Shown piece by piece: positions 5,104 through 34,620 of a DNA stretch of 36,476 nucleotides. The position numbers and the translations under genes are program-made. The first letter of the stretch is position 1, and every line of letters starts with the position of its first letter. The DNA comes from Desulfobacterales bacterium (GTDB lineage: Bacteria; Desulfobacterota; Desulfobacteria; Desulfobacterales; C00003060). The notes beneath the pieces were generated by a model. It was not told the DNA's origin, did not search any database, and saw only the letters and a program-made list of their open reading frames with translations. The stretch lies in assembly GCA_023129535.1 (NCBI GenBank), contig JAGMBW010000143.1, positions 1 to 36,476 of the forward strand, read 5' to 3'.

Positions 5104-5173
5104 CGGAATGCGGAATGCGGAATGCGGATTTCAAATTCCTCAATTCCTGAATTCCTCAATTCCTGAATTCCGG
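5104..5173. repeat. Word-array palindrome, GGAAT type
   Basis: The left arm is three tandem GGAATGC units (5105-5127) and the right arm is an array of AATTCCT-like units (5135-5172), so the arms pair through GGAAT/ATTCC cores. It occupies most of the dprA-topA spacer and begins about 10 bases after the dprA stop when read leftward. Confidence 0.7.
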
Positions 5174-5183
5174 CTTGTCCGGG

Positions 5184-6275
5184 TCAGGGTTCACATCTGG
5201 CAAACAATTTGCCGGGGCTTTGCGTCACCAGGCCCTTTAACTCCAGTTGTAAAAGGAGGCTTGAGGCTTGTGCCGCTGAAAGCGACAGGCGTCGAACCAG
5301 CTTATCAATATGCACCGGGTAAGGACTCAGTTCATCTATTATCTTTTTTTCATCCGGTGTGAGTGATATGGTTCGTTTTTCCTTGGTATCCGCAGATGGC
5401 AGTGGCTGGGCGATGTTTAGCTCTTCAATGATATCATCCGTGTGCTCCACGAGCTTTGCGCCTTGCTTGATCAAACGATGGGTGCCCATACTCTTAAATG
5501 AGGCAACACTGCCTGGCACGGCAAATACCTCACGTCCCTGCTCGGCTGCAAGACGCGCTGTGATTAGACTCCCACTTCTACGGGTGGCCTCCACAATGAC
5601 AGTACCGAGGGCCAGTCCACTGATGATCCGGTTTCGTACGGGAAAGTTGTGTGCGTCAGGCGGGCTCAAAAACGGAAATTCTGAGATGACTGCTCCGCTT
5701 TCGACAATTCGATAAAACAGCCTCTTGTTTTCAGCCGGGTATATAGTACCCAGGCCGCAACCCAGCACAGCAATCGTTTTCCCCCCGCCGGCCAGTGCTC
5801 CAATGTGGGCAGCGGAGTCAATGCCGAGCGCCATTCCGCTCACCACGGTAAAGCTACGTCGGGCCAGGTCAGCACTCAGGCGTTTGGTTATGGTGCGACC
5901 ATAAGATGTGGCATTTCGGGACCCTACAATTGCAATATTCAGACTGTCCGGGTCAAGTGTCCCGTATACATAAAGCACAGGAGGGGGATCGTGTATGTGG
6001 CGCAGGAGGGTAGGGTAGTCAAGATCTGAAAAGGTGATGAGCCTAACTCCATTCTTCTGCGCAAGGGCCAGGTCCTCTTGAACCTTCCCTGGAATCTTGT
6101 GGCCCTGGATGGCCGATGCCAGATGATCATTAATCCCTTCTACCTGCAAGAGTTCTTCTCTTGACGCCGAAAAAACCTTTTCGGGCTCCCCGAAGTGTTG
6201 AATAAGGTGCAGAAACAAGCGGTTACCGACACCGGGGACAGATTTTAGGCCAAGCCACTGGATGAGCGATTCCAT
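5184..6275 (-). CDS. dprA: DNA-processing protein DprA/Smf
   Basis: 363 residues. The N-terminal ~60 residues form a helix-hairpin-helix-like region (GLKSVPGVGNRLFLHLIQHF). The central Rossmann-like domain carries the DprA signatures GSRNATSYG (118-126), SGMALGIDSAAH (146-157) and FPVRNRIISGL (211-221). A small winged-helix-like C-terminal domain follows (about 305-363). DprA binds single-stranded DNA and loads RecA during uptake of DNA by transformation; it is also widespread in bacteria not known to be competent. The start is ATG 6275, with only a weak ribosome-binding site. It lies between secF and topA in the leftward series. Identification is secure; competence of this organism is not implied. 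Confidence 0.96.
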   Translation of the reverse strand: MESLIQWLGLKSVPGVGNRLFLHLIQHFGEPEKVFSASREELLQVEGINDHLASAIQGHKIPGKVQEDLALAQKNGVRLITFSDLDYPTLLRHIHDPPPVLYVYGTLDPDSLNIAIVGSRNATSYGRTITKRLSADLARRSFTVVSGMALGIDSAAHIGALAGGGKTIAVLGCGLGTIYPAENKRLFYRIVESGAVISEFPFLSPPDAHNFPVRNRIISGLALGTVIVEATRRSGSLITARLAAEQGREVFAVPGSVASFKSMGTHRLIKQGAKLVEHTDDIIEELNIAQPLPSADTKEKRTISLTPDEKKIIDELSPYPVHIDKLVRRLSLSAAQASSLLLQLELKGLVTQSPGKLFARCEP

Positions 6276-6293
6276 AAGTCTGTAAAATTTCTT

Positions 6294-6446
6294 GCGAGTT
6301 ACGAGTTACGAGTTTTTCGGTGCTTGACGCCCGATACTCGATGCCCGATACACGATGCTTGATACTCGATGCTTGATACTATGATGTATGAATCCAGTTT
6401 GTATCTTTATCCAGTACCCAGTATCCAGTATCGAGTATCAAGTAGC
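6294..6446. repeat. Word-array palindrome, CGATACT/TGATGC type
   Basis: It begins with CGAGTTA units (6294-6314), then an array alternating CGATACTCGATGC and TTGATGC-like words (6321-6380), a short spacer, and a right arm of ATCCAGTACCC-like and ATCGAGTATCAAG words (6409-6444) that is the reverse complement of the left. It fills the secF-dprA gap. Confidence 0.7.
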
Positions 6447-6497
6447 TTTCCGAGCATGGCTCCTATACGAACAAGCGGGTGGCTGTGTCAAGGGTTT

Positions 6498-7571
6498 TCA
6501 GTGGAAAGGACGCGAGCGTAGTCTGGCGATCGGTTTTTTCATGGTTTGCTGCCAGATAATCAGAACAGGGCTTGCTACATAAATCGAGGAATAGGTCCCT
6601 ACGATAATACCGATAATCAGGGCAAAGGCAAAATCATGAATGATGCCCCCTCCCAGGACAAAGAGGGCTACAACCACCGCCAGAGTAGTCAGGGATGTGA
6701 GGAGTGTACGACTCAAGGTTTCGTTGATACTGCGGTTTATGATTTGTTCATAAGGCTGCCGGTGATATTTGCGTGAGTTTTCTCGGATACGGTCAAACAC
6801 AATGATTGTATCATTTAAGGAATAACCTATGATGGTTAAAAGGGCTGCAATAATCGGAAGGGTAAATTCTTTATTAGTCAGCGAGAAGACCCCGACTGTA
6901 ATGAACACATCGTGTATCAAGGCCACAATAGCGCCCATGGCGAATCTCAGCTTTAGATAAAAACTCAATGTTAGAGTGACCAGCAGTGCGATTATAATCA
7001 GTATCGGAATGCTCACACCAAATTTGGTAAATACGAGAAGCGTTACGATCAGGCCCGAAGCCATGATGATGCTCACCATCCATTTGAGCTCAAAGCGGCC
7101 TGAGATATAGACCACGATAAAGAGAAGGGCAGAAAACATGGCCAAAAGCGCCTTTTCTCTAAGGTCTTTACCCACCTTGGGACCCACCATCTCCACACGA
7201 CGCACTTCCACTTTGTTCTGCGGATAGGCAGACTCAATCACCCGTTTGATCTCAGGGGCAAGACTTTCCAGTGCCTCGGTCGATTCGGCTGCCCTGATCA
7301 GGAACTCATGTTCTTTCCTTTCTCCAAACCCCTGAACCGAAGTGATACCCAGACCCAATCGTCTGAGAGCGTTCTTGATAGCCCCGGGTTCAATTTCTTT
7401 TGCGAACTTGACCTGAACCACTGTTCCGCCGGCAAAATCGATCCCGTACCTGGGCCCCGCTTTTGCAACCAGGGAGATGATGCTGACGGCGACCAGCACC
7501 AGGGATCCCACAAAGGCGATTTTCCTTTTTCCTATGAAATCGATGTTTATATCAGGTTTGATAAACTGCAT
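6498..7571 (-). CDS. secF: Protein translocase subunit SecF
   Basis: 357 residues, longer than the roughly 300-320 typical of the family. TM1 is at about 16-36, followed by YGIDFAGGT (42-50) that opens the periplasmic domain. TM2 is at about 141-157. The conserved region with LLTIIGYSLNDTIIVFDRIR (244-263) includes the family's charged FDRIRE stretch. SecF works with SecD and YajC at the SecYEG channel and uses the proton or sodium gradient to finish protein export. An additional ~45 residues with two hydrophobic stretches (about 165-181 and 187-205) lie between TM2 and the usual LRFAMGAIVALIHDV helix. The start is ATG 7571. The gene follows secD after a 197-base spacer that carries a word-array palindrome. 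Confidence 0.96.
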   Translation of the reverse strand: MQFIKPDINIDFIGKRKIAFVGSLVLVAVSIISLVAKAGPRYGIDFAGGTVVQVKFAKEIEPGAIKNALRRLGLGITSVQGFGERKEHEFLIRAAESTEALESLAPEIKRVIESAYPQNKVEVRRVEMVGPKVGKDLREKALLAMFSALLFIVVYISGRFELKWMVSIIMASGLIVTLLVFTKFGVSIPILIIIALLVTLTLSFYLKLRFAMGAIVALIHDVFITVGVFSLTNKEFTLPIIAALLTIIGYSLNDTIIVFDRIRENSRKYHRQPYEQIINRSINETLSRTLLTSLTTLAVVVALFVLGGGIIHDFAFALIIGIIVGTYSSIYVASPVLIIWQQTMKKPIARLRSRPFH

Positions 7572-7648
7572 GGGTCATAGGTCTCGTAAGTTTTACAACT
7601 CATGGAATTCATATGTCTCTTGATGATAATCGATTTGTGCCATGCAAA

Positions 7649-7760
7649 TGGAATAATGGAGTGTTGGAGTACTGGAGTAGTGGGCAGCAAGAGCGGAAAA
7701 GAGCCTTTTTTCCTCCAAATCCATCACTCCAGTACTCCATTTCTCCAATACTCCGTGATT
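7649..7760. repeat. Word-array palindrome, GGAGTATT family copy 1
   Basis: The left arm (7649-7684) is a run of TGGAGT(A/G)(T/C)T-like octamers and the right arm (7721-7757) is the matching run of ACTCCA words. The ~36-base centre contains a run of six Ts. It starts within about 10 bases of the secD stop. The same words recur at 11293-11458, 17260-17346 and 34498-34620. Confidence 0.85.
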
Positions 7761-7768
7761 CACCGGGT

Positions 7769-9370
7769 TTAGATACTCAGGTGCTTTATGTGTCGCTGAA
7801 AAATCAGATAGTCAAAGATCGCTCTTGTAACCAAAATAGCCGTAAAGAGACTTGCCAGGATCCCAATACTCAGAGTAACCGCAAAGCCCTTTATGGGGCC
7901 TGTTCCAAATTGAAAGAGGACCAGGGCTGCAATAAGCGTGGTTACATTGGCGTCCAGAATGGTCATTGTAGCCCTGCTATAGCCAGCATCCACAGCAGCT
8001 CTGGGTGTCTTGCCCAGGCGAGCCTCCTCCCGAATACGTTCGAAGATGATCACGTTGGCATCCACGGCCATGCCTATAGTCAGGATGATTCCCGCCATGC
8101 CCGGCAAGGTGAGCGTGGCCCGAAAGAATGCCAGACCAGCTCCAATCAAAATGATGTCCAGACAGATGGCCATATCTGCAATGATACCGGCACCTTTGTA
8201 ATACATCGCTATGAATAGGAGAACAAAAATGCCGCCGACCCACATGGAAAGGAGTCCTTTTTCAATCGAGTCGCGGCCCAGAGAAGGCCCAACAGTTCGT
8301 TCCTCAAGAATCTTGACCGGCGCAGGCAGGGCACCGGCTCGCAGGACAATAGCCAGGTCCCGGGCCTCTTCGGTGGTAAAATTGCCAGTAATGCGTGCCT
8401 CGCCTCCGCTGATTTTTTCCTGGATGACCGGGGCCGAGTACACGCGATTGTCTAAGACAATGGCAAGCCGTTTTTTTACGTTCGCTTCAGTAATCCGTTC
8501 AAAGAGCCTGGCCCCTTTTTTGTCAAAGTCCATGGAAACATAAGGCTCACTGAATTGGGAGTCGATTTGAACCCTGGCATCCGTCAAATACTCACCGGTG
8601 AGATAAGTTCGTTTTTTAACCAAAAACGGTGTCCTTGTGGTACGCCTTGTCACCTCGTCTTCACTGATTTGATAAAGGATCTCATCGCCTGGCGGAATGT
8701 TTCCTTTCAGGGCCGCCTCAACATCATGGTCCTCATCCAATAGTTTGAATTCCAGAAGGGCTGTCTGTCCGATCAGGTTAATGGCCCTTTGAGGGTCCTT
8801 GATTCCCGGAAGTTGCACCAGGATGCGATTTTGTCCCTGTCGACGGATATCCGGTTCGCTGACACCGAACTGGTCAATGCGATTTCGGATAGTCTCCATG
8901 GCCTGTTTGGAAGCCATCTCTTTTATATACTTGACTTCTTGTTCTGGTAGATCGAGGCAGACAACAACATCCTTACCCTCAGGGGTTCTGGATACAAGGC
9001 GGAGCCACCCGAACTCCTTGTCGAGCATCTTGTCAAAGGCCTCAGTGTTTTTCTGATTCAAAATGCGGACCGATATTTGAATCGCTTGTACACGATCAAG
9101 CTCCGCATATCGAATGCGGGCTTTTCTCATGGCATCCCGGAGTTCTTGAACGGTTCGTTCTATTCTGTTTTCTACTGCTTCCTGGGTTTGGACTTCCAGT
9201 ACGAGATGCATGCCGCCCTGAAGGTCGAGGCCCAGATGAATCTTTTCAGTGGGAAGGATACCCAGGGTTCTCCACCAGGTAGGGAGATTGGAATAGACAG
9301 ACGGCACAACATATACCAATGCCATTACCACGAGGGCAAGAATGAGAAATAGCCTCCATTTGAGTTGCAT
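7769..9370 (-). CDS. secD: Protein translocase subunit SecD
   Basis: About 533 residues. An N-terminal membrane helix (about 6-28) is followed by GLDLQGGMHLVLEV (about 47-60), the start of the large periplasmic domain. The domain ends before a cluster of five membrane helices that includes the family motif GMAVDANVIIFERIREE (about 434-450), whose Asp is needed for gradient-driven export in studied members. It partners SecF and YajC. I take ATG 9370 as the start; a TTG one codon upstream (9373) is equally placed behind GAGAGAGG. It follows yajC by 16 bases and is clearly co-transcribed with it. Confidence 0.97.
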   Translation of the reverse strand: MQLKWRLFLILALVVMALVYVVPSVYSNLPTWWRTLGILPTEKIHLGLDLQGGMHLVLEVQTQEAVENRIERTVQELRDAMRKARIRYAELDRVQAIQISVRILNQKNTEAFDKMLDKEFGWLRLVSRTPEGKDVVVCLDLPEQEVKYIKEMASKQAMETIRNRIDQFGVSEPDIRRQGQNRILVQLPGIKDPQRAINLIGQTALLEFKLLDEDHDVEAALKGNIPPGDEILYQISEDEVTRRTTRTPFLVKKRTYLTGEYLTDARVQIDSQFSEPYVSMDFDKKGARLFERITEANVKKRLAIVLDNRVYSAPVIQEKISGGEARITGNFTTEEARDLAIVLRAGALPAPVKILEERTVGPSLGRDSIEKGLLSMWVGGIFVLLFIAMYYKGAGIIADMAICLDIILIGAGLAFFRATLTLPGMAGIILTIGMAVDANVIIFERIREEARLGKTPRAAVDAGYSRATMTILDANVTTLIAALVLFQFGTGPIKGFAVTLSIGILASLFTAILVTRAIFDYLIFQRHIKHLSI

Positions 9371-9386
9371 CAACTCATTACCTCTC

Positions 9387-9716
9387 TCATTTTCTCTCGG
9401 GATTTTCGGCCTGCACTAACCCTGCGATGTTGGTGCGTCCCACCTTTACACGCACCTTTTCTGAAATCTCAAGCGTAACAACCGTGTCGGTGATGCCCGT
9501 AATCCGACCATACAACCCACCGCTTGTGATTACACGATCGCCCTTTCTAAGGCTGCCGAGCATCTGGCGATGATGTTTCTGCTTCTTTTGCTGGGGTCGT
9601 ATCAAAAGAAAATAGAATATGGCAAACATCAGGATGAGTGGGACCAAAGCCCCAAATCCGCCACCCTGTCCGCCTGCGCCCCCTCCTGTGCCCATGGCAT
9701 ATGCAATGTCAATCAA
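9387..9716 (-). CDS. yajC: Preprotein translocase subunit YajC
   Basis: 109 residues from a TTG start at 9716. That start has an almost perfect AAAGGAGGT ribosome-binding site 8 bases upstream, and the preceding in-frame ATG (9776) would add 20 residues encoded by a repeat element, so it is rejected. A Gly-rich N-terminus is followed by one membrane helix (about 23-40) and the family signature RPQQKKQK. A C-terminal small beta-barrel-like region (LRKGDRVITSGGLYGRITGI) matches YajC. It associates with SecDF at the translocon. The yajC-secD-secF order is the standard one. Confidence 0.95.
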   Translation of the reverse strand: MIDIAYAMGTGGGAGGQGGGFGALVPLILMFAIFYFLLIRPQQKKQKHHRQMLGSLRKGDRVITSGGLYGRITGITDTVVTLEISEKVRVKVGRTNIAGLVQAENPERK

Positions 9717-9750
9717 GATAATTACCTCCTTTGTTATGGTTATTCGATGA

Positions 9751-9824
9751 CGCATAGGGCAAAGCGCATGGCGCATAGCGTTTTCTTGCTCCCTGCTCTA
9801 TGCGCTCTGCTCCATGCGCTCTGC
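9751..9824. repeat. Word-array palindrome, GCATAGC family copy 1
   Basis: The left arm consists of GCATAGG, GCAAAGC, GCATGGC and GCATAGC words (9751-9780), the centre is TTTTCTTGCTCCCT, and the right arm is CTCTATGCGCT-like words (9796-9824). The second copy at 9905-9981 has the same flank (TTATTCGATGA) and the same centre, so the two are homologous duplicates about 155 bases apart. Confidence 0.85.
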
Positions 9825-9904
9825 GATTACACGATTTACAACTACTCAAGTTTCCAACCCAATGGAGTTGGCCTGATCAAAATCGCCCCACTCGTTATTC
9901 GATG

Positions 9905-9981
9905 ATGCATAGGGCATAGCGCATAGCGTTTTCTTGCTCCCTGCTCCCTGCTCTATGCGCTTTGCTCTATGCTCTATGCGT
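9905..9981. repeat. Word-array palindrome, GCATAGC family copy 2
   Basis: The left arm GCATAGG-GCATAGC-GCATAGC (9907-9927), a centre with an extra CTCCCTG unit, and the right arm of CTATGCGC/CTATGCT words (9951-9981). Its right end overlaps the purB 3' end: read leftward, the purB stop TAG (9976-9974) is the last part of a GCATAG word. Confidence 0.85.
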
Positions 9982-11275
9982 TTTTTCCAAACACTCGGGC
10001 AAAGATAGTGTTCACATGCCTTAGCTGGGCCTTTATATCAAAGAGTGTTTCAATCTCATCGGGTTTCAAGTAATTTCGAATATCTGAATTACTCAGGACA
10101 AATTCTTTAAACCCCTTTTTTTTCTTCCATGCCCCCATGGCCTGTTTTTGAACCATGTTATACGCTTCTTGCCGGCTTACACCCCGTTTGGCCAAGGCAA
10201 GGAGTATCTGCTGAGAAAAGATGAGGCCCCGGGTGAGTTCCAGGTTTTGCTCCATCCGTTCGGGATAGACGACAAGGTTACGTATGATTTTCGTCATCCG
10301 GCTTAGCATGTAGTCAACCAGAATGGTGCTGTCAGGAGCGATTACCCTTTCCACAGACGAATGGCTGATGTCACGTTCATGCCACAGCGGTATGTTGTTC
10401 ATGGCGGCGGCAGCATTAGAGCGAACCAGCCTCGCCAGGCCGGACAGGTTTTCGCAGCCTATTGGGTTGCGCTTGTGGGGCATGGCAGAGGACCCCTTTT
10501 GCCCTTTTGAAAAATGCTCCTCGACCTCTGAGACCTCTGTCCTTTGAAGGTGGCGAAGCTCTACCGCGATCTTCTCTATCGTAGAGGCCATGATGGCTAA
10601 CGTCGTAAAATACTCGGCATAGCGATCTCTCTGGATAATCTGGTTGGAGATGGCCGCAGGCTGGAGGCTCAGTTTTCGACATACATAAGCTTCCACCTCC
10701 GGTGAAATATTGGCATAGGTGCCCACAGCGCCTGAGATCTTGCCAACGGCTATGGTTTCCATGGCCTGTTCCATCCGCCTGAGATTGCGTCCCATTTCGT
10801 CATACCACAGGGCCAGCTTCAGGCCAAAGGTGATAGGCTCGGCATGTATGCCATGGGACCGGCCGACCATGATGGTGTGCTTGTGAGCCATGGCCTTTCT
10901 TTTCAGGGCAAGCATGAGACGCTCACACCCCTTTAAAATCAGTTTGGACGCCCCCTTGAGCCTCACGGCCATGGCAGTATCCAGGATGTCCGACGAGGTC
11001 AGCCCCAAATGGATGTATCGTGCGTCCGGGCCGACGGTCTCTCCGACATTTGTCAAGAAGGCAATAACATCATGTTTGGTTTCGGCCTCAATGGCATTGA
11101 TCCTTTCAACAGAAAAGCGTGCGTTCTTTCGAATATTCTGTGCTGCCTTCTTAGGGATCTGGCCAATCTTAGCAAGGGCTTCACAGACCAGGATCTCTAC
11201 CAGAAGCCACGCCTGGAATTTCTCTTCCTCTGTCCATATACGGCCCATGGCCTCACGGGTATATCGTTTGATCAT
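9974..11275 (-). CDS. purB: Adenylosuccinate lyase
   Basis: 433 residues. It has the fumarase/aspartase-superfamily signature GSSAMPHKRNPI (about 261-272), whose Ser is the catalytic residue of the flexible loop, the conserved GRSHGIHAEP (138-147) and TSSDILDT (93-100). The enzyme acts twice in purine synthesis: it cleaves SAICAR to AICAR and adenylosuccinate to AMP, releasing fumarate. Start ATG 11275 sits behind TTGGAGA and gives the standard N-terminus MIKRYTREAMGRIW. The open frame runs 90 codons further upstream, but that part is palindromic repeat sequence and part of the previous gene, so it is excluded. The final codon and stop come from a repeat word. Confidence 0.97.
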   Translation of the reverse strand: MIKRYTREAMGRIWTEEEKFQAWLLVEILVCEALAKIGQIPKKAAQNIRKNARFSVERINAIEAETKHDVIAFLTNVGETVGPDARYIHLGLTSSDILDTAMAVRLKGASKLILKGCERLMLALKRKAMAHKHTIMVGRSHGIHAEPITFGLKLALWYDEMGRNLRRMEQAMETIAVGKISGAVGTYANISPEVEAYVCRKLSLQPAAISNQIIQRDRYAEYFTTLAIMASTIEKIAVELRHLQRTEVSEVEEHFSKGQKGSSAMPHKRNPIGCENLSGLARLVRSNAAAAMNNIPLWHERDISHSSVERVIAPDSTILVDYMLSRMTKIIRNLVVYPERMEQNLELTRGLIFSQQILLALAKRGVSRQEAYNMVQKQAMGAWKKKKGFKEFVLSNSDIRNYLKPDEIETLFDIKAQLRHVNTIFARVFGKNA

Positions 11276-11292
11276 GACGTCTCCAATCACAG

Positions 11293-11458
11293 GGAGCAAT
11301 GGAGCAATGGAGTATTGGAGTAGTGGGTATTTAAACCGGTATAAGGCGCAAGGCATAAGGCGCAAGGCAAGATGTTTACCCCGTGCGCCTTGTGCCCTGG
11401 GCCTTACGCCAGCTAGTTCTAACCCATCACTCCAGTCCTCCAGTGCTCCAGTACTCCG
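11293..11458. repeat. Nested palindrome: GGAGTATT copy 2 with AAGGCGC inside
   Basis: The outer arms are GGAGCAAT/GGAGTATT/GGAGTAGT words (11293-11327) and their complement ACTCCAGT-like words (11426-11458). Inside lies a second palindrome built from a different word, AAGGCGC/AAGGCAT (11340-11369), paired with GCGCCTT/GGGCCTTACGCC (11383-11410). It fills the gap between the LysM-like gene and purB and abuts the upstream gene's stop. Confidence 0.85.
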
Positions 11459-11459
11459 A

Positions 11460-13270: not shown

Positions 13271-13284
13271 TGGACCCTGGAGGT

Positions 13285-13497: not shown

Positions 13498-13508
13498 CCT
13501 CATCTCCC

Positions 13509-14657
13509 TTAACCAAACATCGCAATCAACATGCCGGCTGCCGACGCACTACCGATCACACCGGCCAGGTTCGGGCCAATGGCGTGCATGAGCAAAAAAT
13601 TATTGGGATTCTCCTGTTGTCCGACCATCTGTGAGACACGTGCTGCCATGGGGACTGCGCTAACCCCTGCTGAGCCGATGAGGGGGTTCATTTTCTCCTT
13701 CAGAAAGAGATTCATGATCTTTGCCGTCAGGACGCCACCCATGGTACAAATGGCAAAATCGAGCAGGCCGAAGGAAAAGATGAGCAACGGCTTGGCCGTG
13801 AGAAATTTTTCAGCCTGCATGGTCGCACCTACGGAGATGCCCAGAAATATGGTGACGATATTCATAAGAGAGCCCTGCGCGGACCCGGCCAATCTATCTA
13901 CAACCCCACTTTCTCGCATAAAGTTTCCGAGCATAAACATTCCCATTAAAGGCGTTACCGCAGGGACCAAAAGTGCAATGACCGCCGCTACGATAAGCGG
14001 AAAGAATATCTTTTCACGGTTCGACACGGGCCTCAGTTGTCTCATGACGATCTTTCGTTCCTGCCTGGACGTTAGAAGTCTCATGATGGGGGGTTGAATC
14101 AAAGGGACCATGGCCATGTACGAGTAAGCGGCAAGGGCATTGGCCCCAAGGAGATGGGGGGCCAGCTTGGCCGTGAGGTAGATGGTTGTGGGTCCGTCAG
14201 CCCCTCCAATAATCGCCACCGATGCAGCCTCCTTCATTGTAAATCCAAAAAGGAGGACGCCCAGAAATGTCACGAAGACGCCAAGTTGAGCGCCGGCCCC
14301 AATGATCATGGTTTTCGGGTTGGCAATGAGGGGCCCGAAATCGGTCATGGCCCCGAGTCCCAGAAATATGAGGCACGGGATGACCTCCCACTCCACACCA
14401 TAGTGGTAGAATATGTTGAACAGTTCCCGTTTACCGTTGGCGTCGAAGCCCATGAGCGGGGTCAGGGGGAAGTTAACAATGAAGATTCCAAAACCGATCG
14501 GCAGCAGGAGCAAGGGTTCGTATTTCTTGGCAACGGCCAAATAAATGAAAAATAGGCCGATCCCCCACATGATGACGAGCTTATAATGAAGATGGAAAAG
14601 CCCAGTTTGTGTATAAAGGATATTCTGTAAGAGATCAATAAAGGTCTCCCAATTCAT
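13509..14657 (-). CDS. oadB: Na+-translocating decarboxylase beta subunit
   Basis: 382 residues, with about nine to eleven membrane helices. The conserved GGADGPTTIYLTAKL (151-165) contains Asp154, which aligns with the sodium-site aspartate of characterised OadB/GcdB proteins. The C-terminal GPNLAGVIGSASAAGMLIA is also typical. The subunit couples carboxybiotin decarboxylation to export of about two Na+ ions across the inner membrane. Start ATG 14657 lies behind GAAGGA. Downstream oadG completes the membrane part. In the Desulfobacterota such pumps can serve fermentation of dicarboxylates or propionate pathways. The protein could equally be called GcdB or MmdB; the three cannot be separated without the alpha subunit. 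Confidence 0.93.
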   Translation of the reverse strand: MNWETFIDLLQNILYTQTGLFHLHYKLVIMWGIGLFFIYLAVAKKYEPLLLLPIGFGIFIVNFPLTPLMGFDANGKRELFNIFYHYGVEWEVIPCLIFLGLGAMTDFGPLIANPKTMIIGAGAQLGVFVTFLGVLLFGFTMKEAASVAIIGGADGPTTIYLTAKLAPHLLGANALAAYSYMAMVPLIQPPIMRLLTSRQERKIVMRQLRPVSNREKIFFPLIVAAVIALLVPAVTPLMGMFMLGNFMRESGVVDRLAGSAQGSLMNIVTIFLGISVGATMQAEKFLTAKPLLIFSFGLLDFAICTMGGVLTAKIMNLFLKEKMNPLIGSAGVSAVPMAARVSQMVGQQENPNNFLLMHAIGPNLAGVIGSASAAGMLIAMFG

Positions 14658-14671: not shown

Positions 14672-14768
14672 ACTGCTTATTGAGTTTATTGAGTTAACCC
14701 AGTAAACCAAATCAACCCAATGAACCCAATAGACCCAACAAACCCGACAAACTCAACAAACACAATAA
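14672..14768. repeat. Word-array palindrome, CCCAATAAA type
   Basis: Arrays of AACCCAAT/AACCCAAC/AACTCAAC words (14694-14768) form the right arm and TTATTGAGTT-type words (14677-14695) the left arm. The array begins directly after the RNase E/G stop codon when read leftward and reaches to within about 15 bases of the oadB start. Confidence 0.65.
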
Positions 14769-17259: not shown

Positions 17260-17346
17260 TGGAGTGATGGAGTATTGGAGTACTGGAGGAGGGGAACTGT
17301 TGCTAACCCATAGCTCCACCACTCCGTCACTCCAATACTCCAATTG
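17260..17346. repeat. Word-array palindrome, GGAGTATT family copy 3
   Basis: Left arm TGGAGTGATGGAGTATTGGA and onward (17260-17294), right arm CACTCCGTCACTCCAATACT and onward (17318-17346). Read leftward, its right arm encodes the last codons and the TGA stop of the glycosyltransferase, and its left arm ends some 18 bases before the exchanger start. Confidence 0.85.
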
Positions 17347-20799: not shown

Positions 20800-22636
20800 T
20801 ACCGATACCTATCTTAATGCAGTTGATGGGAACTGGTACAGGCAAAGACTGTCGGGGACTGTGATCTGCGTTTTTGCTGTATTCTTGGTTCTTTTGGCGC
20901 GACTTTATTACCTGCAGATCATAAAAGGTTCCGAATATCGGCGCTTGTCTGAAAATAACTGCATTCGTCTGCAAAGCATACCCCCTCCCCGTGGTTTAAT
21001 CTATGACTGTCATGGAGAGCTGATCGTAGACAATCGCCCGTCTTTTAATGTTTCGGTTGTCTTAGAAGACGCCAAGAATCCCAGGCGCGTTGTGACCACG
21101 CTGGCAAAGCTATTGAATATTGGACCTGAAACGCTGTTGGCAAAAATAGAGGAGGCAAAGGGTTGGCCTTCTTTTAAGCCTCTCATACTCGCACGGGATC
21201 TTGGCCGGGATGCTATAGCTGTTGTGGAGGCTCACAAACTGGATCTTCCCGGAATCATGGTCACAGTTGAACCAATGCGTCATTATGTTGAGGGCAAACG
21301 GGCTTCACACCTTATCGGATACCTGAGTGAGATCAGTCGCGAGGAATTGAAAAGTGGATCCTTTCGTGACAGTGGGATTGGGGATTTCATTGGAAAATTC
21401 GGGGTAGAAAGGGCCTTTGAGCCTTATCTTCATGGAAAGCGTGGCAAACGGCAGATCGAGGTCAATGTCCTGGGCCAGTGCACAAGGATCCTTAAGACTG
21501 AGGAGGCGATACCCGGGAATAACATTTACCTGACATTGGACATGGGGCTTCAGCGCACGGCCGAAGCATTGCTGGTCGGAAAGGCGGGAACTGCCCTGGC
21601 AATGGATCCCTCCAATGGGTATATCCTGGCGATGGCGAGCAGTCCGGCCTTTGACTCCAATGCGTTTGTGGAGGGCATGACGTTTGAAGCGTGGAACAAA
21701 CTTGCCAGCAATGAATTCCGTCCCATGGAGAATAAGGCTATTCAGGGACAGTATCCCCCGGGATCGACGTACAAGATCGTAACAACCATCGCAGGGCTGG
21801 AAGAAGAAGTTATCGATGAAAACACGAAATATTACTGTCCGGGCTATCACAGGTATGGCAACCGCATCTATCGGTGTTGGAAACGTTCCGGACACGGATT
21901 CGTAAACATCATAGATGCCCTGGCTCAATCGTGTGACGTCTTTTTTTATCAGGTGGGTGAAAAAGTGGGCGTGGATCGTTTGGCCCGATATGCTAAGGGG
22001 TGCGGATTAGGTGTGCCCACCGGGATCAACGTTGACAACGAAGCCGTAGGCCTGGTACCCACCTCAGCGTGGAAGTTGAGAAGTAAAGGAGAACCCTGGC
22101 AGGGCGGTGAGACCCTTTCTGTGGCAATCGGCCAGGGGGCTAACTTAGTCACACCTATCCAGATGGTTTCTTTGGTGGCTGCCGTGGCCAACGGAGGGAC
22201 CCGGTATAAGCCGTTGTTGGTGGAGCGGATAGTAGCCGCGGATGATTCCCCGATCCACATAGGGATGCCAGAGCCTTTAGGAAGGCTCCCAGCTTCGGAT
22301 AAGACACTCCGGCTTCTGAGGACAGGTTTGGTTGATGCGGTGAATAAACGCACAGGCACTGGATGGATCGTCCGTTTAGCTGGCAGCCAGGTGGCTGGCA
22401 AGACCGGCACAGCCCAGGTCGTGGCCATGAAACACAAAGAGGATCAAAATGGCCTTGAGAGCACACCCTTTCGTTTTCGTGATCATGCCTGGTTTGTGGG
22501 CTTTGCACCGGCGGAGAAACCCCGCATTGCTGTGGCCGTGTTGGTAGAACACGGCGGACATGGAGCAAGTGGGGCAGGGCCGATTGCCAGACAGATGATC
22601 AAGACGTATCTCGGGGCATTGAAGATTGAAGATTGA
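20792..22636 (+). CDS. mrdA: Penicillin-binding protein 2 (elongation transpeptidase)
   Basis: 614 residues. One N-terminal membrane helix (about 21-42), a pedestal domain, and a transpeptidase domain with S325TYK (SxxK, acyl-serine), S380CD and KTGT (537-540). The PPRGLIYDCHG stretch near 65-75 is typical of PBP2. It crosslinks peptidoglycan in the side wall with the RodA glycosyltransferase. The start overlaps the mreD stop. The C-terminus KTYLGALKIED and the TGA stop are read from a GAAGATT word array, so the authentic tail seems to have been altered by the repeat. Confidence 0.97.
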   Translation: MNDTDTYLNAVDGNWYRQRLSGTVICVFAVFLVLLARLYYLQIIKGSEYRRLSENNCIRLQSIPPPRGLIYDCHGELIVDNRPSFNVSVVLEDAKNPRRVVTTLAKLLNIGPETLLAKIEEAKGWPSFKPLILARDLGRDAIAVVEAHKLDLPGIMVTVEPMRHYVEGKRASHLIGYLSEISREELKSGSFRDSGIGDFIGKFGVERAFEPYLHGKRGKRQIEVNVLGQCTRILKTEEAIPGNNIYLTLDMGLQRTAEALLVGKAGTALAMDPSNGYILAMASSPAFDSNAFVEGMTFEAWNKLASNEFRPMENKAIQGQYPPGSTYKIVTTIAGLEEEVIDENTKYYCPGYHRYGNRIYRCWKRSGHGFVNIIDALAQSCDVFFYQVGEKVGVDRLARYAKGCGLGVPTGINVDNEAVGLVPTSAWKLRSKGEPWQGGETLSVAIGQGANLVTPIQMVSLVAAVANGGTRYKPLLVERIVAADDSPIHIGMPEPLGRLPASDKTLRLLRTGLVDAVNKRTGTGWIVRLAGSQVAGKTGTAQVVAMKHKEDQNGLESTPFRFRDHAWFVGFAPAEKPRIAVAVLVEHGGHGASGAGPIARQMIKTYLGALKIED

Positions 22637-22806
22637 AGATTGAAGATTGAAAATTGAAGACTGAAGATTGTAAAATTGGCAAATGAACAGTCAAACGACA
22701 ATAGTGAATCGACAATCGATTCGCGATTCGCGATTGATGATTGAGTCTTTCAATCAACAATTAACAATCTTCAATCTTCAATCGACAATAGTCAATCCAA
22801 AGTCAA
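22619..22806. repeat. Word-array palindrome, GAAGATT type
   Basis: The left arm is at least seven tandem GAAGATT-like heptamers (22619-22671), the centre holds CGATTCG/CGATTGATG words (22707-22742), and the right arm is CAATCTT/CAATCGA/CAATCCA words (22749-22806). It spans the whole mrdA-rodA gap, includes the mrdA stop and ends at the rodA ATG. Confidence 0.85.
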
Positions 22807-27518: not shown

Positions 27519-27555
27519 TCGGTGATTAGCGACACTTGTGTATAGGGGTTAAGGC

Positions 27556-28458: not shown

Positions 28459-28484
28459 ATGTGTTGCAAGTTGTGGATAGTATA

Positions 28485-29995
<1,511 letters not shown>

Positions 29996-30044
29996 GATCT
30001 AAGAGTTAGAGATTTTCAGATAAGTAATACAGATAGGTGGGATT

Positions 30045-30467
30045 ATGGCAGGCAATATAATGTTAGAAGTTGTGACCCCTGACAGATCAGTGGCTAGCGA
30101 AGAGGCCCAGATTGTGGTCGTTCCAGGGGAATACGGGGAATTTGGCGTGTTGATCGGTCATACGTCCTTCTTGACGACCCTGAAAATAGGGATGCTCAGG
30201 TACAAGGACAGGGATGGCAGTGAACGGGTCGTGTTTGTGAATGGCGGCTTTGCGGAGGCTCTGCCTAACAAGGTCACAGTCCTGGCTGAGTCTGCCGAAC
30301 GACGCAAAGATATAGACGTTGAGCGGGCCACGGCTGCATTGAAGCGAGCTGAAGAGCGCCTGGCCGAAGCCAGCAGGCGAGAAGACATTGATTTCAATCG
30401 CGCTCAAGTCGCTTTGCAGCGGGCATTAGTTAGGGTTAGGATCGCGGAGACCAGAAGAGCCCGATAG
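30045..30467 (+). CDS. atpC: ATP synthase F1 subunit epsilon
   Basis: 140 residues. An N-terminal beta sandwich (LEVVTPDRSVASEEAQIVVV, then GEFGVLIGHTSFLTTLKIG) is followed by two C-terminal helices rich in Arg, Ala and Glu, the form that can brake ATP hydrolysis. It lies 49 bases after atpD and directly before a strong terminator, so it closes the operon. Confidence 0.96.
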   Translation: MAGNIMLEVVTPDRSVASEEAQIVVVPGEYGEFGVLIGHTSFLTTLKIGMLRYKDRDGSERVVFVNGGFAEALPNKVTVLAESAERRKDIDVERATAALKRAEERLAEASRREDIDFNRAQVALQRALVRVRIAETRRAR

Positions 30468-30495
30468 GTTCTTTATTCAATACAATGTTATAACT

Positions 30496-30528
30496 GGGGC
30501 AAGTCAATTGACTTGCCCCTTCTTTTTT
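30496..30528 (+). terminator. Rho-independent terminator after atpC
   Basis: A perfect 24-base palindrome (30496-30519; half site GGGGCAAGTCAA, then TTGACTTGCCCC) is followed by TTCTTTTTT. It lies 29 bases after atpC. Because of it, the TTG at 30527 cannot be a sensible start for the next gene. Confidence 0.92.
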
Positions 30529-30535
30529 GGTAGAA

Positions 30536-30606
30536 ATTATAAAATCGCTTTGCGATTTTATGTATCGCGGCTTCACCGCTAAGAAATGGAAAAACGAATA
30601 TTCCAT
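30536..30606. repeat. Double-hairpin element copy 2 (reverse orientation)
   Basis: AAAATCGC-TTT-GCGATTTT (30541-30559) and GCGGC-TTC-ACCGC (30567-30579) followed by AAGAAATGGAAAAA. This is the reverse complement of copy 1 at 28485-28545, including the flanking TTTTCCATTT. It sits between the atpC terminator and the GlmU-like gene and falls inside the longest open frame of that gene. Confidence 0.8.
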
Positions 30607-30607
30607 T

Positions 30608-31387
30608 GTGGAAAATGTGGCTGTTATCATATTGGCTGGTGGCAAGGGTACCCGCATGAGGTCGGGCCGAGCCAAGGTGCTACACGAAATCGTCGGGGTG
30701 CCGATGATCCGATATGTGGTCGAGACTGCCCTTGCTGTGTCGGACGACGTTGTGGTCGTTATAGGTCATCAGGCCGAGGCCGTGCATAAGGCCCTCGCAT
30801 CTTACCAGATGCTTCGTTTTGCAGTTCAGAAGGAACAGTTTGGCACGGGGCATGCGGTCATGACCGCCATGCCAGAGGTTCAGGCGGGAATCGAGGATGC
30901 GGTCATTTTGTGCGGGGATACGCCCTTGATAAGGCCGGAAACGGTGCGTAGGTTGATTGATAAGCACAGAGCTCAGAGGAGCTATTTGACCCTCATAACA
31001 ACGACGCTTACAAGACCTTTTGGATATGGCAGGATGGTTTTAGACGCACGCGGGGCCCCGATTCGTATTGTGGAAGAATCAGATGCAATAGAATCAGAGA
31101 AGAAAATCTCCATTGTCAACACCGGAACCTATTGTATAAACATGGCTTTCTTGAAAAAGGGCCTCGCAGGCTTGAAAAAGGATAACGATCAGGGCGAGCT
31201 GTACTTGACCGACGTGGTAGAATGGGGGTACCGAGAGGGCAAACCTGCTGTCCTTTTAGAGATAAATGATACCATTCAAATGATGGGTGTAAACACTATG
31301 GAGGAGTTGGCCAAAGCTGAAAGGTTTGTGCAGCAGACCATGAAGGGAGGGGACCAAAATCCTCTTGACTTTTATGTCAGTGCTTAG
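30608..31387 (+). CDS. GlmU-like uridylyltransferase domain only
   Basis: 259 residues from GTG 30608. LAGGKGTRMRSGRAKVLHE (9-27) is the nucleotide-binding loop of GlmU-type pyrophosphorylases, followed by FGTGHAVM, CGDTPLIRP and NTGTYCINM, then DNDQGELYLTDVVEWG. Bacterial GlmU is 450-490 residues; here the left-handed beta-helix acetyltransferase half is absent, and the frame closes with a normal stop before a repeat. It may make UDP-N-acetylglucosamine from preformed GlcNAc-1-phosphate, or activate another sugar phosphate. The frame stays open upstream to 30527, but that part is repeat and terminator sequence. No good ribosome-binding site is seen, so the exact start is uncertain (GTG 30608 or 30617). 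Confidence 0.82.
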   Translation: MENVAVIILAGGKGTRMRSGRAKVLHEIVGVPMIRYVVETALAVSDDVVVVIGHQAEAVHKALASYQMLRFAVQKEQFGTGHAVMTAMPEVQAGIEDAVILCGDTPLIRPETVRRLIDKHRAQRSYLTLITTTLTRPFGYGRMVLDARGAPIRIVEESDAIESEKKISIVNTGTYCINMAFLKKGLAGLKKDNDQGELYLTDVVEWGYREGKPAVLLEINDTIQMMGVNTMEELAKAERFVQQTMKGGDQNPLDFYVSA

Positions 31388-31415
31388 TAAAATTTTAATA
31401 AATTAGGGCAAGGTT

Positions 31416-31491
31416 TTCTGGATTCCCGCCTACGCGGGAATGACGAATTAACGTAAGTCCTGTCATTCCCGCGAAAGCGGGAATCCAGGAA
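31416..31491. repeat. Inverted repeat with GCGGGAAT hairpins
   Basis: TTCTGGATTCCCGCCTACGC and onward (31416-31445) is the reverse complement of 31461-31491, and each arm also folds alone as ATTCCCGC/GCGGGAAT. Repeats of this kind (GGATTCCCGC...GCGGGAATGAC) occur in many proteobacterial genomes. It lies 28 bases after the GlmU-like gene and could act as a bidirectional terminator or a miniature mobile element. Confidence 0.85.
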
Positions 31492-31575
31492 ATGTTCATA
31501 GCACATGATCTACCCGAACTTATTGAGAACTTACTATTTATTGAGAAATCGTGCCAAGCGGTTTTAGGGGGATCT

Positions 31576-31818
31576 ATGGAGGAGGAGAGTTTTCCTGAGC
31601 AATTTAAGAAGCTGGAAGATAAGGTGCAGCAATTGGTTCAGACATGTCGTGATCTCCAGCAGGCCAAGTCTGGATTGGAAGCCAAGATATACGAACTGGA
31701 AGGAACTCTCAAGACCAAGCTGGCTGCTGAACAACATTATGCAGAAGAAAAATCGATGATTGGGTCGAAAATAAATAACTTGCTGAGCAGACTGGATCAG
31801 GTTCTCGGTCCCAAATGA
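31576..31818 (+). CDS. zapB: Cell division protein ZapB
   Basis: 80 residues, nearly all coiled coil (FKKLEDKVQQLVQTCRDLQQ and onward), with the size and heptads of ZapB-type proteins. The start is ATG 31576 because AGGGGG stands five bases before it; the open frame extends to 31492, but the additional residues come from the inverted repeat. ZapB helps organise the FtsZ ring through ZapA, and zapA follows 89 bases later, which strengthens the name. Coiled-coil proteins are easily misnamed, so I rely on context as much as on sequence. Confidence 0.75.
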   Translation: MEEESFPEQFKKLEDKVQQLVQTCRDLQQAKSGLEAKIYELEGTLKTKLAAEQHYAEEKSMIGSKINNLLSRLDQVLGPK

Positions 31819-31824
31819 CAGTTT

Positions 31825-31893
31825 ACCTAAGTGCTCTAATTTGTGAATTCTGAACACCTTAACTTTAGGCACTTTAGATCACTTTAGGCACTT
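31825..31893. repeat. Word-array palindrome, TTTAGGCAC type
   Basis: ACCTAAGTGCTCTAA (31825-31839) pairs with TTAGGCACTTTAGATCACTT and onward (31865-31893), the latter being repeated CACTTTAGG words. It starts within 10 bases of the zapB stop and ends just before zapA, the same placement as the other palindromes. Confidence 0.6.
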
Positions 31894-31907
31894 CAATTTG
31901 GATATCT

Positions 31908-32186
31908 GTGGAGCGATTAATCAGCATAGAAGTATTTGGACAGGTTTATACGTTCAGAGCGAGGGGTCAAGTTTCGCAGTCTGAAGAGGTTGTAAATTAT
32001 GTAGCCGGACAGGTGGAAAAGGCCCGGGCGGCTGCTGAGGCGCCGGGCAAACTGGACACGGTCATTCTTGCTGCCCTGAATATTGCCAATGACTATTTTG
32101 AAATGAGGGGTAGCCTGCAGGACCTTGTAAGAGATGTAGATCAACGTTGTAAGCTTTTGATTGAACATATTGACGCCAACGGTTAA
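31908..32186 (+). CDS. zapA: Cell division protein ZapA
   Basis: 92 residues from GTG 31908. The N-terminal beta domain (ISIEVFGQVYTFRARG) and the following helix with ALNIANDYFEMRGSLQDL match ZapA, which bundles FtsZ filaments in the early division ring. The length is typical. It directly precedes 6S RNA, as in many proteobacteria where zapA and ssrS are adjacent, and follows a ZapB-like gene. Confidence 0.92.
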   Translation: MERLISIEVFGQVYTFRARGQVSQSEEVVNYVAGQVEKARAAAEAPGKLDTVILAALNIANDYFEMRGSLQDLVRDVDQRCKLLIEHIDANG

Positions 32187-32201
32187 GGCAATACGGGCGA
32201 G

Positions 32202-32381
32202 ACCCCTGCCGTGCTCGTGATCGGCAGAAGTTTTTTGAGCCAACATATACTCAAACGGGAACCTTCTCTTGCTTTGGTGTGCATGTTCTGTGGATACAGA
32301 AAAGCCTAAAGGAGCAACAGGGTCCCCACCTGTGCAAACAGGTTCAAGAGAGTCTGGCGACACGGCACTGTGGCGGGGGTA
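32202..32381 (+). ncRNA. ssrS: 6S RNA (SsrS)
   Basis: About 180 nt. The ends pair: ACCCCTGCCGTGC (32202-32214) with GCACTGTGGCGGGGGT (32365-32380). Inside, TGAGCCAACATATACTCAA, then TTGGTGTGCATGTTCTGT, AAAAGCCTAAAGGAGC and AGGTTCAAG align by eye with the conserved parts of Escherichia coli 6S RNA (its GTTGGTGAGCATGC, GAAGCCTTAAA and GGTTCAAG segments) in the same order. 6S RNA mimics an open promoter and holds the housekeeping RNA polymerase in stationary phase. The position right after zapA is the conserved one. Boundaries are inferred from the closing stem. Confidence 0.88.
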
Positions 32382-32925
32382 CCCTTCACAATATAAAGCG
32401 TCATGGAATCAAGATTGTTTGTGCTGAGATATATTTGGGACGCAACAATATTATGCTACTCACTATCAAGTGGGGGCAATAAGTGTGTGGCAAACGGAAT
32501 AATTGCCGAAGCTCCCCATAATTTTGACGTCTCGGAAATTCTACAACATGTTGACATTATAGCGCTTTATTAGCTTGGCTGGAGTTCCAAGACAGGAATG
32601 ATGGACACGAAGTGAAGCCTGCGCTCATGATGGAATATTCCATTATTCCAATTGCGAAGCGAAGCCGCGCTAAGTTCAACATAAGCTAAGAAGGCGTCCA
32701 AAACGAGCGATAAGTTTTCAACCCCCAATACAACCTCAGCGTACGCTCAACTCGTTTAGGGTCTTTCCATTGTGTCTCGCTTCCGTTGGTATCTCGCCCG
32801 TTAACATTTTGCAATTTTGATAAAATCGTAAGAAGTAAATAACCACAGTCGTCTTTTTTCTTACGAAATTGTCGATCCTATGTGTAAGACCAATAATCCT
32901 TCAGGGCATTAAGGGGGGTACCAGT
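32382..32925. other. Gene-free stretch between 6S RNA and rny
   Basis: About 540 bases without a gene I can support. A 56-codon rightward frame (ATG 32403 to TAG 32573) has no ribosome-binding site and no recognisable motif; the folate-cycle gene that follows 6S RNA in enterobacteria is not here. At 32630-32672 there is a weak, diverged copy of the double-hairpin element (GCGAAGCGAAGCCGCGC). The rest is AT-rich, and the rny promoter is not clear. Confidence 0.5.
32630..32672. repeat. Possible degenerate double-hairpin copy 3
   Basis: GGAATATTCCATTATTCCA followed by GCGAAGCGAAGCCGCGC resembles the reverse complement of the 30566-30606 part of copy 2 (TGGAATATTC..., CCATTTCTTAGCGG...GAAGCCGCG). 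Only the GC-rich hairpin half is present; the AAAATCGC hairpin is missing. Confidence 0.4.
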
Positions 32926-34488
32926 ATGGACATCACCTCAGTCATAGTTCTCAGTATCATCCTTTTAGCTGCAAGTTTTGTGCTTGCCTTCTGGATTCGC
33001 ACTAGACTGACGGCCGGTAAAATCAGGGCTGCAGAGGACGAAGCCCGCAGGATCATAGAGGAGGCCCAAAAAGAAGCCGGCACCATCCGAAAGGAGGCCA
33101 AGCTTCATGCAAAAGATCAACTCTACCAAATGAAGGTAGACTTTGAAAATGAGACCAAGGAGATACGGTCCGAACTCAAAAGTGTACAAAAACGCCTTGC
33201 ACAAAAGGAAGAGGCTATTGATCGCAAGACAGGGCAACTGGAGCGCCGTGATACGAGCATATCCCAAAAAGAACAAGGGCTTATGGAAAGGGAAAAAGGA
33301 CTGCATGGCCAAGAAGAGAAGTATCAGGCATTGATCGAGCAACAAAAAATGCAACTGGAGAGTACCTCAGGTTTGACAGCGGATGAGGCCAAAGAACTCT
33401 TGATCAAGGCCATGGAGAATGATGCCCGCTACGAAGCGGCAAAGTTCATCAAGCGCATTGAAAACGAGAGCCGCGAACAGGCGGACCGTAAAGCGAGAAA
33501 GATCATTGGAACCGCAATTCAGCGCTACGCAGGCGATTATGTTGCAGAAAAGACGGTGGCAGTCGTTAATCTGCCGAGCGATGAGATGAAAGGCCGGATT
33601 ATTGGTCGGGAAGGGCGTAACATTAGAGCCCTGGAAGCCGCCACAGGGATTGATCTTATTATAGATGACACGCCAGAGGCCGTCATTCTGTCAGGATTCA
33701 ATCCTGTGAGACGAGAAGTGGCGCGCCTTTCTTTGGAACGGCTAATCAGTGATGGGCGTATCCACCCGGCGAGAATCGAAGAAACAGTTAAAAAGGTCTC
33801 CCAGGAGATGGACGCCGAGATGCGAGAAGCTGGAGAACAGGCAGCCTTTGACCTGGGAGTCCATGGGATTCATCCTGAGTTGATTCAGCATATAGGGAAA
33901 CTGAAATTCAGGACCAGCTATGGCCAAAACGTCTTACGTCACTCTGTGGAAGTGGGGTTTTTGTGCGGTATTATGGCTGCCGAACTGGGTCTCAACGTGA
34001 AGGAGGCGAACAGGGCGGGTCTCCTGCATGATATCGGAAAGGCGATAGACCATGAGGTTGAAGGACCTCATGCCTTGATTGGGGCGAAACTGGCCAGGAA
34101 ATATGGAGAATCGCCTAGTATCGTCCATGCCATTTCCGCCCATCATGAAGATGTTCCGCCCACATCAGTTCTGGCAATTCTGTTACAGGCAGCCGATACG
34201 CTTTCAGGGGCACGGCCAGGTGCACGAAGAGAGATACTGGAGACGTACGTGAAGCGCCTCGAGGAGTTGGAAAGGATTGCAAAGTCTTTCACAGGCATAA
34301 GTAAATCCTATGCAATTCAAGCAGGGCGAGAGTTGCGAATTATTGCGGAAAGTGAAACGGTTTCAGATGCTGAGGCTATTCTGCTGTCCCGGGACATCGC
34401 CAAGAAGATTGAGGAGTCGATGTCATATCCCGGGCAGATTAAGGTGACGGTGATTCGAGAGACCCGTGCGGTCGAATATGCAAAGTGA
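32926..34488 (+). CDS. rny: Ribonuclease Y
   Basis: 520 residues. An N-terminal membrane helix (about 5-23) is followed by a long coiled coil (about 30-150), a KH domain with [12 protein letters not shown] (223-234), and an HD domain with His339 and His368-Asp369 as metal ligands. RNase Y is a membrane-tied endonuclease that starts mRNA decay. Start ATG 32926 has AAGGGGGG upstream; the open frame begins 57 bases earlier but those residues are not family-like. The organism therefore has both RNase Y and an RNase E/G. Confidence 0.96.
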
Positions 34489-34497
34489 ATCTGTCTA

Positions 34498-34620
34498 TGG
34501 AGTGATGGAGTGATGGAGTATTGGAGTAATGGAATAGAGTGCAGAAAAGGCTTACGAAACTTAAATAGTTATTCCTTTTTGCCCATCACTCCAGTACTCC
34601 ATTACTCCAATACTCCAATT
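34498..34620. repeat. Word-array palindrome, GGAGTATT family copy 4
   Basis: Left arm of TGGAGTGA/TGGAGTAT/TGGAGTAA octamers (34498-34534) and right arm of CACTCCAGTACTCCATTACT words and onward (34586-34620). It lies 9 bases after the rny stop, and its right end (CAATTGGGAG) supplies the ribosome-binding GGGAG of tyrS. Confidence 0.85.

Follow-up and report, generated by a model that had tools for sequence, protein, structure and literature searches.

Several described classes of repeats come near to the elements treated here, which are intergenic palindromes with arms made of tandem arrays of a 7–9 nt word, found in a 36,476 nt stretch of DNA from an uncultured Desulfobacterales bacterium related to sulfate reducers (GenBank assembly GCA_023129535.1, contig JAGMBW010000143.1; hereafter the window). 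This stretch makes up contig 50 in a draft genome of 2.9 Mb, whose nearest named relatives are metagenome-assembled genomes of uncultured Desulfobacterales or Deltaproteobacteria. The closest bacterial precedent that we found is BrickBuilt of Porphyromonas gingivalis (PMC4596501), a miniature inverted-repeat transposable element (MITE) that is likewise intergenic and holds a minisatellite within terminal inverted repeats; its repeats are 23 nt long, direct and in one orientation, whereas our elements have 7–9 nt words in two inverted arrays, with a large number of word families and more than one frame. Foldback elements such as Tetris of Drosophila (PMC4079207) are also nonautonomous and modular with tandem repeats within inverted repeats but are eukaryotic with units of ~220 bp, whereas the arms here consist of short words and often lie inside other ends. 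Repetitive extragenic palindromic (REP) sequences and REPINs (GTAG and CGTC superfamilies, PMC3733652) are likewise short palindromes of spacers that occur in high copy number, with more than one family in a genome; the abstract describes tagged palindromes of 20–40 bp and makes no mention of tandem words in the arms. Finally, the TAACTGA arrays of Beggiatoaceae (PMC4679880) are intergenic heptamer arrays with a patchy distribution over distant taxa; they are direct repeats (with one inverted case) of one favored word, unlike the two-way arrays found here.

An exact-string literature search with six of the word strings returned four papers, each with one of the strings and all irrelevant by title, and no description of these elements was present among the literature matches listed, subscription papers being outside the coverage. 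By their form, the elements come nearest to the MITE with internal minisatellite and to the foldback element. We consider it likely that they are high-copy families of small nonautonomous mobile palindromes, similar to MITEs or foldback elements, which became dispersed over the spacers of the genus.

Results

Word Palindromes Are Frequent and Genus-Wide

The initial annotation had claimed that at least 11 spacers of the window hold palindromes with arms of tandem words. We compared each interval with 300 dinucleotide shuffles, for which the lowest reachable p is 0.003. The hairpin score was above all shuffles in 11/11 intervals (p = 0.003), and tandem words with a period of 6–10 nt were found in both halves of nine (p = 0.003); 9751–9824 was borderline (p = 0.043), and 31825–31893 failed the both-halves test (Table 1). 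These results bear out the claim, although the word length, given as 6–8 nt, was slightly off: The periods taken from Tandem Repeats Finder (TRF) are 7, 8, and 9, with a 9-mer array at 14672–14768 and a period of 9/10 for the CACTTTAG array.

A conservative detector placed word palindromes in 5/23 spacers of the window and in 15/166 spacers of 20 other contigs of the same genome (20/189 in all), compared with none in each of 20 shuffles of the spacers. With the same detector, palindromes were present in 9/41 spacers of genome G188, 3/58 of G167, and 2/53 of G031 (same order, genome in one contig) and absent from the shuffles; they were found in 0/17 spacers of G103 and in 0/35 spacers in 11 loci from other families of the order.

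Word palindromes are genus-wide. In 816 kb of DNA from the genus, 114 of the 169 merged tandem arrays outside open reading frames (ORFs) had an inverted partner at most 300 nt away, compared with 0/195 arrays in a shuffled-neighborhood control that, unlike the observed set, was an unmerged and unfiltered list. Several of the remaining 55 were single arrays holding both arms or lay at contig ends. A plain direct-repeat minisatellite of the STRR or TAACTGA type was rejected, given the 114 arrays with a partner.

A MITE Enclosing a Word Palindrome

Transposition is seen in the family with GGTKTCR words. The element has the inverted ends GGCATCCTTCATT and AATGAAGGATGCC (21 copies aligned), and in G005, the palindrome is enclosed by GGCATCCTTCATTCCTCGG...AATGAAGGATGCC. 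Both ends were found in 15 copies of a first set (23 loci); six of these had an exact 8-bp target duplication and eight a match of at least 7/8, the latter compared with a mean of 0.53 and a maximum of 4 in shuffled pairs, and no other duplication length occurred in more than one of the 15. A second set (20 loci) gave 11 copies with both ends, six of them with exact 8-bp duplications, so that the two sets together contain 12 exact duplications in 26 copies. Among the 40 left ends scored in G005, 16 were 100% identical over 61–63 nt (the query's own copy counted), indicating that the element moved recently.

Word number nevertheless differs between copies. In 23 copies with at most one mismatch in the 76-nt end, left runs held 2–6 words and right runs 0–16, the three zero-word right runs being copies cut by contig ends, and the element was 142–352 nt long where the right end was found. 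Short, noncoding, and dispersed in many copies with terminal inverted repeats and 8-bp duplications, the GGTKTCR element is a MITE whose interior consists of a word palindrome; tandem repeats within inverted repeats are a feature that the word palindromes share with foldback elements. None of the GGCATCC ends was found in the displayed stretches around the GGTKTCR palindromes of G188.

By eye, the same GGCATC frame is present in our own genome near reverse position 14298 of locus L061, where its 8-bp duplication reads AAATCTGA and it encloses another palindrome (ACGTCATTGCGAGGAGCGAGGC...). In G017, contigs C17, C102, C113, C120, C153, C184, and C195 start ~40 nt from a GGTKTCR copy, and the elements therefore probably break assemblies and are undercounted.

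Turnover between Close Relatives

We compared syntenic spacers of 20 relatives and of three species pairs with 96–98% identical DNA. In the syntenic spacers of the 20 relatives, the content is often replaced. The spacer between secD and secF contains GGAGT words in the window, TTGTTGTGT/AACTCAATG in G015, CACTTTAG in G005, and CATTGGT/ACCAATG in G007 and G009; in G017, it is 3 nt long. In G020, the secD stop and the secF start are separated by a 281-nt element, of which G017, although ~98% identical, has no trace. At this junction, the secD stop TGA of G017 is directly followed by ATG (L038 vs. L039 for the two genomes), and possible translational coupling would therefore differ between close species.

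In 13 stretches aligned from the three species pairs, 94–100% of the ORF positions but 25–100% of the spacer positions could be aligned, and ~40% of the spacer nucleotides were unalignable (5,468/9,165 aligned). The turnover is uneven, as spacers aligned at ≥95% in 4 of the 13 stretches. Indels between close relatives comprised whole words, with lengths of 8, 9, 18 (2 × 9), 21 (3 × 7), and 45 (5 × 9) nt, and at one place GGTTTCA words in G005 stand opposite GGTGTCA words in G015. Gain and loss of whole words among related genomes, which the initial annotation had suggested looking for, are thus present, and orthologous spacers of relatives show the same palindromic architecture with different words.

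The whole-word indels could also be produced locally, by slippage on small preexisting spacer palindromes without mobility, and at the site of a long palindrome in G018, its close relative G011 has a palindrome of one word. The same words nevertheless occur at many places and in distant genera, and whole copies lie between unrelated flanks; such dispersed copies contradict this explanation for several families, and a local origin alone is hardly credible.

Families, Words, and Frames

The view of the initial annotation that an architecture, and no fixed sequence, is kept was not upheld: The two GCATRGN elements of the window are 81% identical copies from a family with many further members, and 11293–11458 has near-whole copies elsewhere. 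Thirteen aligned copies of the GCATRGN family have a fixed core, AGCGTTTTCTTGCTC, and arms with a variable number of words. The word GGAGTRNT, in turn, is common to four intervals of the window. Among 18 GGARTRNT-like palindromes of our own genome (two of them with another word, CGAGTGGT), loops matched one another only in four of the 11293–11458 type, and flanks matched in nine pairs (E 1e-3 for both). With the loops mostly unmatched, word and architecture are often all that these palindromes have in common; between genera, loops are mostly unrelated. On this point, the initial annotation was therefore often right, but not in general, as the families with conserved cores demonstrate.

A second type of enclosure, frame c, has the ends ACGTCTCGGAATTTCTACAAC and CAATTGTGAGCGAAGCGAACTAAGTTC and contains GGAATRNT words in G015. 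At 20 G015 loci, one loop was found in 13 and another in seven, and the outer ends were alike where present; matches to these ends also flank GGAGT and CGAGTGGT palindromes in our own genome. By eye, a third pair of outer sequences encloses CACTTTAG, GAATTNAGG, or CGAAATAC words. As the same frames enclose different words, frames and words are separable modules. The arrays seem to reach the element's own ends in free-standing palindromes but not in the GGTKTCR frame or frame c. A nested module, CCCTGGCCCAGACC...GGTCTGGGCCAGGG, recurs within or beside word arrays in L035, L038, L112, and other spacers of congeners and our own genome.

A REP/REPIN system, in which a RAYT, a Y1 tyrosine transposase, moves the palindromes, would suit frame c, where one end is hairpin-like and a duplication is not evident; Y1_Tnp has matches in 20 of the 22 genus genomes, with three in our own. 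The surroundings of these genes speak against such a system. Within 350 nt on each side, 0/20 Y1 loci were flanked on both sides by word arrays (one locus runs off its contig), one had GGTTCA words on one side, and 10 bear, by eye, their own GGGGACG.../...CGTCCCC ends. Furthermore, G007 (96% complete) is without a Y1_Tnp match yet has a word palindrome between secD and secF, and the GGTKTCR frame makes 8-bp duplications. The Y1 transposases were rejected as cognate genes; as far as tested, the elements are not a REP-RAYT system, and we regard this explanation as improbable.

Intervals of the Window

Table 1. Word palindromes of the window and an associated frame end
Positions	Strand	Feature	Remarks
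5104..5173	.	Palindrome, CGGAATG / GAATTNAGG words	Between topA and dprA
6294..6446	.	Palindrome, CGAGTTA, CGATRCY / TATCSAG words (by eye)	Between dprA and secF
7580..7618	.	Nonrepetitive frame-c end (GTCTCGTAAGTTTTACAAC...) beside the 7649 palindrome	Local score 18, without computed null
7649..7760	.	Palindrome, GGAGTRNT words, 4+4	Between secF and secD
9751..9824	.	GCATRGN-word palindrome, core AGCGTTTTCTTGCTC	Near yajC
9905..9981	.	GCATRGN element, second in the window	In the yajC–purB spacer; 81% identical to 9751–9824
11293..11458	.	Nested palindrome: outer GGAGTRNT arms, inner AAGGCGC arms and conserved core	Aligned with five other copies
14672..14768	.	Palindrome, 9-nt words TTATTGAGT / AACHCAAYR, center GTTAAC	TRF and shuffle tests
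17260..17346	.	GGAGTRNT palindrome; right edge merges into frame-c left end CAATTGGGGCGAAGCC	
22619..22806	.	Palindrome, ATTGAAG / CAATCRA words	Congeners: other words or almost nothing in the same spacer
31825..31893	.	CACTTTAGN(T) array confined to the right part; weak palindrome	Both-halves p = 0.126
34498..34620	.	GGAGTRNT palindrome, 5+4 words	

The intervals differ in how far they are dispersed. Five near-whole copies of 11293–11458 lie elsewhere between flanks that look unrelated, one of them without the left outer arm. For 7649–7760, seven similar sites were found in the genome at 69–76% identity, with the flank included in four, and for 6294–6446, two partial copies are dispersed in the genome. 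The palindrome at 5104–5173 has no second copy in the genome at E 0.001, and by eye the sequence to its right, CCTGACCCGGACAAGCCGGAATTC, is similar to the frame-b left end of congeners; that at 14672–14768 has no whole copy in a 280 kb sample, to which the search was limited. The array at 31825–31893 is present in G020 and absent in its close relative G017. In the spacer of 34498–34620, G005 has 17 nt without a palindrome, and G017 and G020 have the CACTTTAG element instead.

Other repeats occur in the same contig. A paired palindrome with GGATTCCCGCCTACGCGGGAATGACG at 31418–31519, which we take to be a REPIN-like repeat, resembles one lying inside the G020 word palindrome at the 22619 locus, and short dispersed repeats at 28473–28552 and 32527–32605 are ~89–94% identical to many sites in G005, G015, G017, and G020.

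Variation within Words

Words vary at fixed positions, as in GGAGT[A/G]NT, and the same positions vary in distant Desulfobacterota. Accepting words at ≥6/8 matches around an exact seed, which caps the number but not the identity of variable positions, we counted mismatches to GGAGTATT at successive positions of 0, 0, 0, 0, 4, 20, 40, and 1 in our own genome (60 words), 0, 1, 0, 0, 2, 9, 22, and 0 in G167 (45 words), and 0, 0, 0, 0, 1, 4, 9, and 0 in G188 (19 words). Similarly, positions 4, 5, and 7 of the GCATAGC word vary in 33, 34, and 55 of 141 words, compared with at most 4 at the other positions. From a looser word table, only the 8- and 9-mer rows were used, as its 7-mers (3/7 mismatches allowed) are contaminated by chance matches.

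The distribution of the GGAGT word is patchy, with matches in 12 of 395 Desulfobacterota genomes and more than 10 hits in five (142 in our own genome, 132 in G167, 40 in G188, 23 in G137, and 12 in G447); in the reversed control, two genomes had a single hit each. The loci displayed for the low-count genomes G090, G190, G299, G407, and G409 are one-sided arrays and not palindromes. With the K and R positions preset in the search pattern, GGTKTCR words were found in 17/395 genomes, most in G188 (259) and G279 (143), compared with at most 7 per genome in the reversed control. G188, which belongs to another family, also has GATTGCG, CTCCATG, and AATTCCTT words. As for carriers, phages were rejected for the GGAGT arrays, as six IMG/VR stretches with these arrays had no inverted partner in the 180 nt displayed per stretch, and plasmids were rejected with one weak hit covering 25% of the query; GGTKTCR occurs in 113 stretches.

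The confined variation could mean that distant Desulfobacterota share a lexicon of words with a fixed core and fixed free positions (e.g., GGAGT[A/G]NT, GGT[G/T]TC[A/G], GCA[T/A][A/G]GN, and AAC[A/C/T]CAA[C/T][A/G]), set in unrelated frames and kept by a trans factor that reads or writes words. Candidates for the factor would be a repeat-templating polymerase or a word-binding recombinase. We think such a lexicon unlikely.

Arm Agreement and Word Change

The initial annotation had proposed slippage together with correction between the arms. The first part agrees with the gain and loss of whole words between close relatives; the second is at most weakly supported. Two arms of the same element resemble each other slightly more than arms taken from different elements do (0.770 vs. 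0.737, permutation p = 0.038; 16 pairs, two with the other word CGAGTGGT). We also studied 19 elements with neighboring arrays of at least three words each and a loop of 0–260 nt, a set that leaves out the window elements at 7650 and 11293, among others, and has a few poorly matching members: Their arms agree at core position 4 (Pearson 0.88, Spearman 0.61), but agreement is low where the word is free to vary (0.62 for G at position 7 and −0.11 to 0.30 for the others counted). Evidence against correction is stronger. In 39 GGTKTCR copies, left words are mostly GGTGTCA (144 times), yet the right-type words are mostly TGAAACC and TGAACAC, and the exact complement TGACACC makes up 14 of ~184; TGAAACC (84) complements the rarer left word GGTTTCA (27). 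Arm lengths also drift apart, for example, to 13 vs. 3 words. Correction from arm to arm was rejected on these grounds.

Agreement of the arms at core position 4 and little agreement at free positions, the nearly fixed core of the words, and the hairpin architecture would all suit a functional RNA or DNA signal (a terminator, an mRNA stabilizer, or a protein-binding array) under selection at each gene. Most of the 11 intervals lie between codirectional ORFs, and several occupy their spacer entirely, up to the stop and start codons. Against such a signal, word arrays were found in the 280 kb sample in 47/123 codirectional, 6/22 convergent, and 5/22 divergent spacers, counts that show no sign of gene-end enrichment, although no statistical test was applied, and orthologous spacers freely lose or replace the element. 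Selection for such a signal is an improbable explanation.

The unequal arms (13/3 and 4/10 words) could alternatively come from words being written at broken ends: At a double-strand break, one short template would serve for the extension of both 3′ ends, which would then be joined, leaving W...W-loop-W′...W′ in place, with nested forms arising via later breaks at the hairpin tip. The polarity expected from this is seen (the GGAGT array first and the ACTCC array second), nested palindromes exist, loops are mostly unrelated both within our own genome and between genera, and word variation is confined to fixed positions. Against it, elements that one of two close species has and the other lacks occur in many copies, loop and ends included, in the genome concerned, one family has inverted ends and 8-bp duplications, and the variable positions of frame c are by eye largely alike between copies and so appear inherited, not rewritten. 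The process writing words in both directions that the initial annotation had suggested is unneeded for the GGTKTCR element, with its inverted ends and target duplications; it could apply to free-standing palindromes, though we give word writing little credence.

Discussion

We favor families of mobile palindromes as the likely explanation. Two inverted arrays of a 7–9 nt word form the hairpin arms within an element, and some palindromes lie inside frames with proper transposon ends, which would be mobilized in trans. The arms would lengthen and shorten independently by whole words, most simply via replication slippage, and transposition of whole modules combined with slippage in each arm would produce dispersal, presence or absence, unequal arms, and whole-word change. 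The explanation builds on dispersal of whole copies, inverted ends with 8-bp target duplications in one family, constant ends in a second, turnover of whole words, and presence or absence between close species. Transposition of the module has occurred in the GGTKTCR family, and the copies of frame c argue for it there; for the palindromes of the window, it is suggested by their shared form and, in some, by dispersed copies. Slippage as the cause of word turnover, and which transposase would move the elements, are likewise inferred.

Several findings weigh against this explanation. Inverted ends and target duplications are established for the GGTKTCR element but for no element of the window, and 14 of the 26 GGTKTCR copies have no exact duplication; by eye, the frame-c copies of G015 have constant ends and no evident target duplication. 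For 5104, 6294, 14672, and 22619, the only match in the 280 kb sample that covers ≥60% of the interval is the interval itself. No autonomous partner of the GGTKTCR ends was found in the G005 draft, where 40 of 91 candidate ends were scored, and copies without a right end had no obvious gene of their own in the first 420 nt, as judged without a domain search. In addition, plain slippage leaves the confinement of variation to fixed word positions unaccounted for and does not explain how one frame comes to hold different words.

On the explanation by mobile palindromes, the elements would be foldback-type mobile DNA in bacteria in which each arm holds a minisatellite; many families coexist, and one or more have been active recently. 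They provide a natural record of the birth and death of arrays at very low divergence. The position-restricted degeneracy common to distant genomes would point either to a word-reading factor or to a purely mutational process able to yield the pattern.

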